This document shows positions 7,124 through 9,537 of a stretch of 17,941 nt of DNA, piece by piece (positions within the stretch are counted from its first letter, which is position 1; every line of letters starts with the position of its first letter). The stretch comes from Vulcanisaeta distributa. GTDB taxonomy: Archaea > Thermoproteota > Thermoprotei > Thermoproteales > Thermocladiaceae. The stretch covers positions 20,272-38,212 of the forward strand of contig DAXY01000092.1 of assembly GCA_002506645.1 (NCBI GenBank). The letters are read 5' to 3'. Under the pieces are notes generated by a model. It was given only the letters and a program-made list of their open reading frames with translations. It was not told the origin of the DNA and searched no databases. Made by a program: the position numbers and the translations under genes.

Positions 7124-7672
7124 ATGGTGCATAGGATAGTAGGACTTGCCATGCCCCGATGGGACTTGGGTACTGTGGGTTACGTAGTGGGTTCTCCCAG
7201 TGATATTGACAATGCATTTGCGGAGCTTTACCTGCGTTGTTACCCCACGATGAATGACATGACCAGGGAAATGAGCAGTAAGGTCTCCTGCATAATTACC
7301 TCCATTAGGAGGGGTTTACCGGTAAGCAGTGCTGTGTTTTTGCTTGATCCCTACGGTATAGCCAATGAGGTCGGCACAAGGTACGGCATTAAGAGAGATA
7401 TTATTCTCAACTGGGTGTATTCTTGGTTTATTAATTACCTAAGAGGTGATGGCTTCATTACAGACACCGACGTGGTATTTCTCGACCAGGAGTTATCGGC
7501 GTTATCCCATATGATGAAGGCAAGTATTGGCGGTGGCGCAAGCGCAATAGCAAGCATCATGGCAACAATAATCATGGTCAAGAGGATAAACGCCAGTGAA
7601 CTGCCAATAAGGGTAATCGACGTAAGGGACAGGGCCACTAAGTACGTGGAGGCTCTAGCCACTAACCACTGA
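7124..7672 (+). CDS. Hypothetical protein
   Basis: 182-residue protein that I do not recognise. It starts at an ATG with a TATA box about 23 bp upstream, so its mRNA is probably leaderless. The protein is mostly soluble in pattern; residues around 128-150 (from HMMKASIGGG to MVKRI) are small and hydrophobic with a Gly/Ala-rich start, which could be a buried helix or one membrane segment. There is no signal peptide. Charged stretches (DVRDRATKYVEAL) close the C-terminus. It is divergent from the zinc-finger/carS pair and convergent with a C/D box sRNA whose D box begins directly after this gene's TGA. No catalytic motif is obvious. Base and codon use match its neighbours, which supports a real gene. 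Confidence 0.75.
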   Translation: MVHRIVGLAMPRWDLGTVGYVVGSPSDIDNAFAELYLRCYPTMNDMTREMSSKVSCIITSIRRGLPVSSAVFLLDPYGIANEVGTRYGIKRDIILNWVYSWFINYLRGDGFITDTDVVFLDQELSALSHMMKASIGGGASAIASIMATIIMVKRINASELPIRVIDVRDRATKYVEALATNH

Positions 7673-7724
7673 TCAGTATTTCCGGCGTCAATCACGGCTC
7701 AGGCAAATGCCTTCTCATCACAAT
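7668..7724 (-). ncRNA. C/D box sRNA (2'-O-methylation guide)
   Basis: Read on the minus strand: C box GTGATGA (7721-7715), a 12-nt guide GAAGGCATTTGC, D' box CTGA (7702-7699), a 3-nt spacer, C' box GTGATTG (7695-7689), a 12-nt guide ACGCCGGAAATA, and D box CTGA (7676-7673). Order, equal guide lengths and the short D'-C' spacer are those of archaeal C/D box sRNAs, which with L7Ae, Nop5 and fibrillarin direct 2'-O-methylation of rRNA or tRNA. A minus-strand TATA box CTTTAAAT (7752-7745) places the transcription start at about 7722, just before the C box. By the N+5 rule the D' guide would modify the fifth base of GCAAATGCC and the D guide the fifth base of TATTTCCGG in the target. C' is imperfect and there is no clear terminal stem; ends are approximate. 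Targets are not identified. Confidence 0.78.
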
Positions 7725-7744
7725 AAACTGAGACAATGCGATTA

Positions 7745-7752
7745 ATTTAAAG
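7745..7752 (-). promoter_or_regulatory. TATA box for the C/D box sRNA
   Basis: CTTTAAAT on minus, centred about 26 bp before the expected 5' end of the sRNA at 7722. No minus-strand protein gene begins nearby, so the sRNA is its only evident client. Confidence 0.55.
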
Positions 7753-7810: not shown

Positions 7811-8323
7811 ATGGTTAGAGGCACGCCAATTAAGGAGGGTGAGGTTAGGAATTACCCCCATGAGGAGTGGACAAAGCCGTTTCAATACAACGTGACTGCA
7901 GGAACAGCCTATTCCAAGTTCCTTGAGGGTCTAAGGAACGGGAAGATCTATGGGACGTACTGCAGTAAGTGCGGTCACGTATTCGTCCCGCCAAAGATGT
8001 ACTGCCCATATTGCTTTAAGCCGGTTGATGAATGGGTTGAGGTTAGGGATGAGGGTACCGTAATAACCGCAGTCGTAAGCTACATAAGTGGTACGAGGGA
8101 ACCGCTTAAGGAGCCTAGGGTCATCGGTGTGATTAAGCTTAGCGTGCCAGGTAAGGAATTTAGTGAACATAGATTTCCCGGCATAATGCACTACCTATGT
8201 GTTGATCCCGAGGATGTCAAGTCAATGAAGGTATTTGGTATGAAAGTTAGAGCTCGGTGGAAACCAACCAATCAAAGAATAGGCTCTGTACTAGACATTG
8301 AGTGCTTCGAACCAGTGAGGTGA
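7811..8323 (+). CDS. DUF35 Zn-ribbon/OB-fold acyl-CoA-binding protein, paralog 1
   Basis: 170-residue protein with an N-terminal helix (about 30-45), a rubredoxin-like zinc ribbon with four cysteines (C51, C54, C65, C68, in CSKCG and YCPYC) and a C-terminal OB fold. This is the DUF35 (Zn-ribbon OB) family, which partners thiolase-fold enzymes; in archaea a DUF35 protein bridges acetoacetyl-CoA thiolase and HMG-CoA synthase in the mevalonate route. No thiolase gene lies in this window, so the partner must be encoded elsewhere. The ATG at 7811 has a TATA box at leaderless distance. A second DUF35 gene starts 5 bp after the stop, so the two are cotranscribed and may form a heteromer or serve different thiolases. 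Confidence 0.88.
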   Translation: MVRGTPIKEGEVRNYPHEEWTKPFQYNVTAGTAYSKFLEGLRNGKIYGTYCSKCGHVFVPPKMYCPYCFKPVDEWVEVRDEGTVITAVVSYISGTREPLKEPRVIGVIKLSVPGKEFSEHRFPGIMHYLCVDPEDVKSMKVFGMKVRARWKPTNQRIGSVLDIECFEPVR

Positions 8324-8850: not shown

Positions 8851-9537
8851 ATGAGCCAAACGCAAAGAAGAATTCCTGTCTATAAGAAGATACTTCAGGA
8901 TAAGGTTAAGGAGTGGACGATTAAGGAATTCCTAAATTATAGATTGGCTAAGCAGGGTTACGTGGATTCCGACGTATTGAAAACCCCACTTGGTACTAGA
9001 ATAATTATTTATGCCGAAAGACCTAATAGGATAATTGGTAGGAAGGGTGTAATCGTTAAGGAGTTAACGGATTTACTCAGTAGGAAGCTTGAGGTTGAGA
9101 ACCCAATAATTGATGTGACGCCAATACAAAACCCAGAGCTTAATCCCAAGATAATTGCCAACAGGATTGCGTGGGCCATGACTAAGGGTGTTAAGTTCAG
9201 GAGGGCTGGCATGATTGCTGTTAGGCAAATAATGGATGGCGGCGCAAGGGGTACTGAGATAAAGATTAGTGGTAAATTAACCAGTGAGAGGTCCAGGTTT
9301 GAGAAGTACGTATTTGGAGTCGTCTATAAGAATGGATATGATGCAAAGAACAAGGTGCAGAGGTTCGTGGGCCAGGTCCTTCTGAAGCCAGGTCTTTATG
9401 GAGTTGAGGTTAGGATAACACCACCAATCAGAGTCAGTGATGAGTTCCAAATAAAACCACCAACCAGGGAGACAGTCACCGAGACTCAGACGCAACAGGC
9501 TGGAGGTGGTGAGGGTGGCGAGCAGGCAGAAACTTAA
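8851..9537 (+). CDS. rps3: 30S ribosomal protein S3 (uS3)
   Basis: 228-residue archaeal S3, a head protein of the small subunit near the mRNA entry channel. The N-terminal type II KH domain has its GxxG loop as GRKG at residues 63-66; the C-terminal domain follows, with VRQIMDGGARGTEIKISGKL as a clear S3 signature. The last 30 residues are a low-complexity Gly/Gln/Glu/Thr tail common in archaeal S3. The gene begins a short ribosomal unit (S3, L29, Rpp29-like) that matches part of the usual archaeal L22-S3-L29-Rpp29-S17 order, but L22 does not precede it: there is a promoter and then DUF35 genes. Its 3' end overlaps the start of rpl29. Confidence 0.96.
   Translation: MSQTQRRIPVYKKILQDKVKEWTIKEFLNYRLAKQGYVDSDVLKTPLGTRIIIYAERPNRIIGRKGVIVKELTDLLSRKLEVENPIIDVTPIQNPELNPKIIANRIAWAMTKGVKFRRAGMIAVRQIMDGGARGTEIKISGKLTSERSRFEKYVFGVVYKNGYDAKNKVQRFVGQVLLKPGLYGVEVRITPPIRVSDEFQIKPPTRETVTETQTQQAGGGEGGEQAET
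9502..9508 (+). promoter_or_regulatory. Ribosome binding site for rpl29 inside the rps3 end
   Basis: GGAGGTG lies 6 nt before the GTG at 9515, inside the Gly-rich codons of the S3 tail. It supports GTG 9515 over GTG 9506 or 9509, which lie within or immediately after it. Confidence 0.55.

Follow-up and report, generated by a model that had tools for sequence, protein, structure and literature searches.

Double-guide C/D box sRNAs are a well-described class in archaea: in the survey by Dennis et al. (2015, PMC4644070), 262 of 489 archaeal sRNAs were called double guides. That survey covered seven species, Vulcanisaeta not being one of them, and the name is absent from its main text; helices 68–71 of 23S rRNA were named there as hotspots. 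In a second study (PMC7994747), some 20% of the C/D sRNA genes of archaea are reported to have a TATA-like motif of their own. The minus-strand element described here, from a 17,941-nt stretch of Vulcanisaeta DNA (the window), is very probably the gene of a double-guide sRNA with its own promoter. This reading rests on four boxes, on two guides with 23S complements at N+5, on conservation, and on an upstream TATA-like element that relatives have in common. The sRNA thus belongs to an already known type and to a known 23S hotspot. The sRNAs of Dennis et al. resemble this one in having four boxes, two guides, targets within 100 nt of each other and a hotspot in domain IV of 23S rRNA, whereas the present locus differs from that set in having a stop codon on the other strand that adjoins the D box.

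An Rfam search at gathering scores gave zero matches for the element. The best relaxed match, sR20 (RF01140), is laid out in the same way and resembles the element in its D-side guide, GGAAAUA before CUGA, but its D' guide differs, and its D guide reads CGguGG in the model versus CGCCGG in the window. The score of the window element (35.2 bits) lies below the gathering score of 44, and the best among eight related genomes reached 41.3 bits. With the threshold relaxed to E ≤ 1, sR20 matches were also obtained in 8 of 14 control genomes, some of them bacterial, so that weak sR20 matches mean little. Membership in sR20 was rejected because of the score and the different D' guide.

The arrangement of the features is given in Table 1. 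The initial annotation had described a C-12-D'-3-C'-12-D order, which was confirmed to the base for all boxes and spacings, the 3-nt spacer between the D' and C' boxes being GCC on the minus strand. The element accordingly shows the layout that defines a double guide, namely, C, D', C' and D boxes with guides of about 9–14 nt. A strict four-box descriptor matched once in the window and in none of 400 dinucleotide shuffles; a loose descriptor also matched once in the window, and matched 1 of the 400 shuffles. The claim that no other TGATGA site in the window is similarly placed was also correct: among the 27 sites on both strands, the one in the C box is the only one with a CTGA starting within 18 nt. 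A terminal stem closing the C/D k-turn was looked for by eye in the 7-row Vulcanisaeta alignment, and no conserved one was seen outside the C and D boxes. The annotation had further placed the D box in a palindrome that also holds the stop codon of the convergent gene. The palindrome (7669–7676) and the TGA are indeed present, but the D box adjoins the stop codon and does not contain it. As a functional element, the palindrome CTGATCAG was rejected because it is not conserved, with TAA preceding TCAG in four relatives (L020, L023, L024 and L025).

Table 1. Features of the putative sRNA gene and its surroundings (positions in the 17,941-nt window)
Feature	Position	Strand	Remarks
TATA-like element CTTTAAAT	7745..7752	−	about 27 nt upstream of the C box
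C box GTGATGA	7715..7721	−	TGATGA invariant in the 7-row Vulcanisaeta alignment
D' guide GAAGGCATTTGC	7703..7714	−	10 bp with 23S CCAAATGCCTTG; N+5 is A1938 (E. coli numbering)
D' box CTGA	7699..7702	−	NTGA at equal spacing in 19/19 rows of alignment A4
C' box GTGATTG	7689..7695	−	weak fit to RUGAUGA
D guide ACGCCGGAAATA	7677..7688	−	9 contiguous bp with 23S AAGTTCCGGCGT; N+5 is U1956 (E. coli numbering)
D box CTGA	7673..7676	−	CTGA invariant in the 7-row Vulcanisaeta alignment
Whole sRNA gene (putative)	7671..7725	−	bounds of the Rfam sR20 model match (35.2 bits, gathering score 44)
Convergent ORF, 182 aa	7124..7672	+	stop TGA (7670–7672) adjoins the D box
Zinc-ribbon/OB-fold gene	7811..8323		flanks the sRNA gene
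Ribosomal protein S3 gene	8851..9537		

The S3 gene of the window is 85–95% identical (best segment) to the S3 genes of six Vulcanisaeta loci and 66% identical to that of a Thermoproteales MAG (L006). The sRNA interval aligns in six of these seven loci, that is, in all six from Vulcanisaeta, always at the same place, with the 182-aa ORF on one side and the zinc-ribbon/OB-fold gene on the other. The S3 locus of the MAG has no sRNA match, and the ortholog of that genome is located on another contig. Throughout the order, 42 of 45 genomes were matched by a profile built from 7 rows (R1, E ≤ 0.1), 36 by a second profile built from 19 rows (R2, E ≤ 0.01; including genome G008), and 40 by a third built from 18 rows (R3, E ≤ 0.01), from which G024, which scored only 22.2 bits, was set aside, leaving 39. 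Reading of the profile matches yielded full-length orthologs in 39 of the 45 genomes, comprising 21 of 25 in the family of the window (the family of genome G001) and 18 of 19 in the family of genome G027. The genomes counted as having no ortholog are G008, G015, G016, G024, G025 and G040. The counts leave out L046, a false match with no C box, as well as L102 (G008) and L106 (G025), which were judged by eye to be non-orthologs. The expectation that the four boxes would be conserved in related genomes was borne out in the six Vulcanisaeta loci and in the 19-row alignment A4; boxes and guides are conserved in the relatives, except for the inner boxes in the family of G027.

Other C/D sRNAs were noticed in the course of these searches. 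L102 is a different sRNA that has the D-side guide (CGTCGGAAATG before CTGA) as its sole part in common with the present one. Outside the order, R2 matched 11 of the 36 genomes of the class, over about half of the model only. In all four such loci that were read by eye (L114–L117), the guide GAAGGCATTTG or GAAGGTATTTG precedes TTGA in the second half of the sRNA, and TCAGAGTTA forms part of the first guide; its complement, TAACTCTGA, lies a short distance upstream in the Vulcanisaeta 23S rRNA. At these four loci, the putative A1938 guide is joined to a different partner guide, a partner swap. In addition, a second C/D-like element lies about 60–85 nt downstream of the sRNA C box in L044, L048, L049, L107 and L113; it has a conserved GCTGAGCTACG before CTGA that is complementary to CGTAGCTCAGC, a string that resembles the D-arm region of tRNAs.

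The targets were searched for in the 16S and 23S rRNAs of a relative, Vulcanisaeta sp. JCM 14467 (genome G007, locus L007), demanding at least nine Watson–Crick pairs that cover the N+5 nucleotide. The initial annotation had proposed a search for guide complements of this length, and exactly one was found per guide, both in 23S rRNA and 18 nt apart; the D guide adds one isolated pair to its nine contiguous ones. The target strings it had predicted were slightly off at their ends, with CCAAATGCCTTG in 23S rRNA instead of the expected GCAAATGCCTTC for the D' guide, and AAGTTCCGGCGT instead of TATTTCCGGCGT for the D guide. The N+5 nucleotides were numbered by alignment with an E. coli 23S gene, and 2'-O-methylation at A1938 and U1956 is predicted for the sRNA. 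On the rRNA of this relative, the two matches have the form by which double-guide targets are recognized in PMC4644070 (at least nine consecutive pairs over N+5, within 100 nt of each other). Shuffled guide pairs produced such sites within 100 nt in only 6 of 200,000 trials. A literature search for the target sites by E. coli number returned no archaeal sRNA paper among the matches listed.

The 30-nt 23S target stretch was found, identical with zero mismatches, in 20 of the 45 genomes of the order; in the remaining 25, it was unmatched at up to three mismatches, perhaps because of introns or missing rRNA. Across 30 distinct orthologs (the window included, and several closely related to each other), pairing is kept in 30/30 at target positions 3–10 of the D' duplex and 4–10 of the D duplex, the sole variation in these positions being GCC to GCT, which gives a G-U pair; the D' register assumed in this score was itself read from alignment A4. 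Next to the D box, the D guide of the window has mismatches at +1 and +3. Many relatives have AACT rather than AAAT before the D box, so that G1954, mismatched in the window, is also paired. In five further orthologs (L104, L105, L108, L111 and L112), read by eye, the D' core differs at its third T, which breaks the A1936 pair and leaves the A1938 pair intact.

These data also bear on a rival explanation, a chance grouping of C/D-like motifs. Such motifs are short and common, and the loose descriptor did match one shuffle; nevertheless, the same placement in 6/6 Vulcanisaeta loci, the orthologs across the order, the shuffle controls and the paired 23S targets contradict a chance origin, which was rejected as vanishingly improbable.

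The D' guide also has a counterpart in eukaryotes. SNORD15 (U15, RF00067) contains the same guide letters at the same spacing, AGGCAUUUG, one base and CUGA, nine letters of the D' guide being equal. The match covers 14 positions of the 146-position eukaryotic model, comprising the guide and D box only, with 12.2 bits (E 0.34) against a gathering score of 75. The listed target of SNORD15 is A3764 in the human LSU rRNA and A2271 in Arabidopsis, according to PMC6461891. The shared guide letters suggest that human A3764 is the equivalent of A1938. Because the U15 guide letters are common to human, plant and the present sRNA, the A1938-equivalent site would be either an ancient target or one that was found repeatedly.

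A minus-strand TATA box had been proposed in the initial annotation, and a TATA-like sequence is indeed present at that place (Table 1). In the 30 distinct orthologs, the AT content reaches 0.85 between −30 and −23 relative to the C box, compared with 0.45–0.62 in the other 17 bins. An octamer with six of eight matches to TTTATAAA occurs at −38 to −18 in 19 of the 30 orthologs, and in 1–7 of 30 in five other intervals. A putative TATA-like element near −30 is thus common to the orthologs.

On the opposite strand, the convergent 182-aa ORF matched no Pfam family (E ≤ 0.001). In 7 of the 10 relatives that were read, TCAG comes immediately after its stop codon, TGA or TAA. The three exceptions are L021, with an early stop or a frameshift in the ORF, L026, where the stop lies 14 nt before TCAG, and L034, where it lies just past TCAG, within the complement of the D guide. 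In L021 (Vulcanisaeta distributa JCM 11216), the ORF homolog is broken near 1226–1242 into two tblastn pieces in different frames, with an early TAG, which could be an assembly error. The contact of the sRNA with the ORF stop in the window and in these seven relatives would fit a cis antisense regulator of the ORF. However, the loci L029–L033, L035–L045 and L047–L049 contain the sRNA and no ORF homolog, as judged by tblastn over 3-kb loci, and the conservation follows the 23S pairing. Moreover, PMC7994747 reports that 25% of archaeal sRNA genes overlap the 3' end of an ORF, and that the effect on a reporter is neutral or slightly negative. A mainly antisense role is therefore highly improbable and was rejected, on the grounds that the sRNA is present in loci that have no ORF homolog.

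In the family of G027, a genome of 2,222,430 bp, the middle of the sRNA is organized differently (families were taken from predefined family sets). All 18 orthologs that were read there, which come from 18 of the 19 genomes of the family (L041–L045, L047–L049, L103–L105 and L107–L113; at about position 1500 or 100), have GGCN or GGGU in place of the D' box NTGA, and a GC stem of 3–4 bp with a loop of 5–7 nt can form where the k-loop would be. In the family of the window, NTGA is present at D' in 21/21 orthologs and the hairpin replacement in 0/21, and none of the 19 rows of A4 has two or more GC pairs at the hairpin site. The family of G027 does retain the two 23S guides, the upstream TATA-like element and the outer boxes, C and D. 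The core of the D' guide, GGCATT, is invariant there despite the loss of the D' box, which suggests that pairing with 23S rRNA matters even without a canonical D' site.

Among 17 distinct rows, 95.5% of the cells of the hairpin pair and 6 cells are changed on both sides of the stem; covariation was scored at 0.285. None of 500 shuffles reached any of these three values, and all are above every slid version. The number of pairs with double changes (reached by 97/500 shuffles) and that of further pair types (31/500) are not unusual. Two of the four pairs are invariant, pair 4 has three mismatched cells, and the change in pair 3, seen in two similar rows, may be one event. In L042, the ortholog of G027 itself, pair 4 is mismatched. 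The minimum-energy fold of the free RNA shows the hairpin in 8 of 18 orthologs. A scan of 800 of the 2,222 kb of G027, which demanded three GC pairs and detects 18/18 of the known hairpin forms, gave 16 C..D candidates, namely, 5 canonical-like, 0 hairpin and 11 other. Five shuffles gave 8–17 candidates each, with 0 canonical-like ones and 0, 0, 0, 1 and 1 hairpins; hence, most of the 16 may be chance. The scan suggests no more than that the hairpin is not general. Taken together, the sequences tip the balance slightly towards a replacement, in this family, of the D' and C' boxes by a compensatorily evolving GC hairpin of 3–4 bp that would not be an L7Ae-binding k-loop, with both guides kept. 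The change would have proceeded from the canonical form to the hairpin form.

These observations also raise the question of whether the sRNA mainly acts as an rRNA folding chaperone, its guides clamping neighboring 23S segments, with methylation at one or both sites being secondary. The spacing of only 18 nt between the two target sites is consistent with such a role, as is the invariant guide core in the 18 orthologs that have lost the D' box. Chaperone roles were proposed in PMC4644070, but for sites that are distant in sequence. On the other hand, all 19 rows of A4, of which the window is one, keep the D' box and the N+5 spacing, and methylation at both sites is therefore favored in them. 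A predominantly chaperone function is thus unlikely, and the methylation guide remains the preferred reading. In line with established knowledge of archaeal C/D RNPs, L7Ae would bind the C/D k-turn and the C'/D' k-loop, and Nop5 and fibrillarin would assemble on the sRNA. The D' guide would then position A1938, and the D guide U1956, of 23S rRNA for 2'-O-methylation. Pairing at both sites, which lie 18 nt from each other, may help to hold this segment of domain IV during ribosome assembly.

With this sRNA, Vulcanisaeta gains a well-supported rRNA methylation guide with two named predicted target nucleotides. If the proposed replacement in the family of G027 is true, a guide for methylation at two sites would have been converted in nature into a guide for one site, its other arm serving for accessory pairing much like the additional base pairing known from eukaryotic snoRNAs, and the clamp function would be separable from the methylation function. 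With the hairpin form, nature would provide a way to test whether a C/D RNP whose guide is conserved requires its k-loop half.
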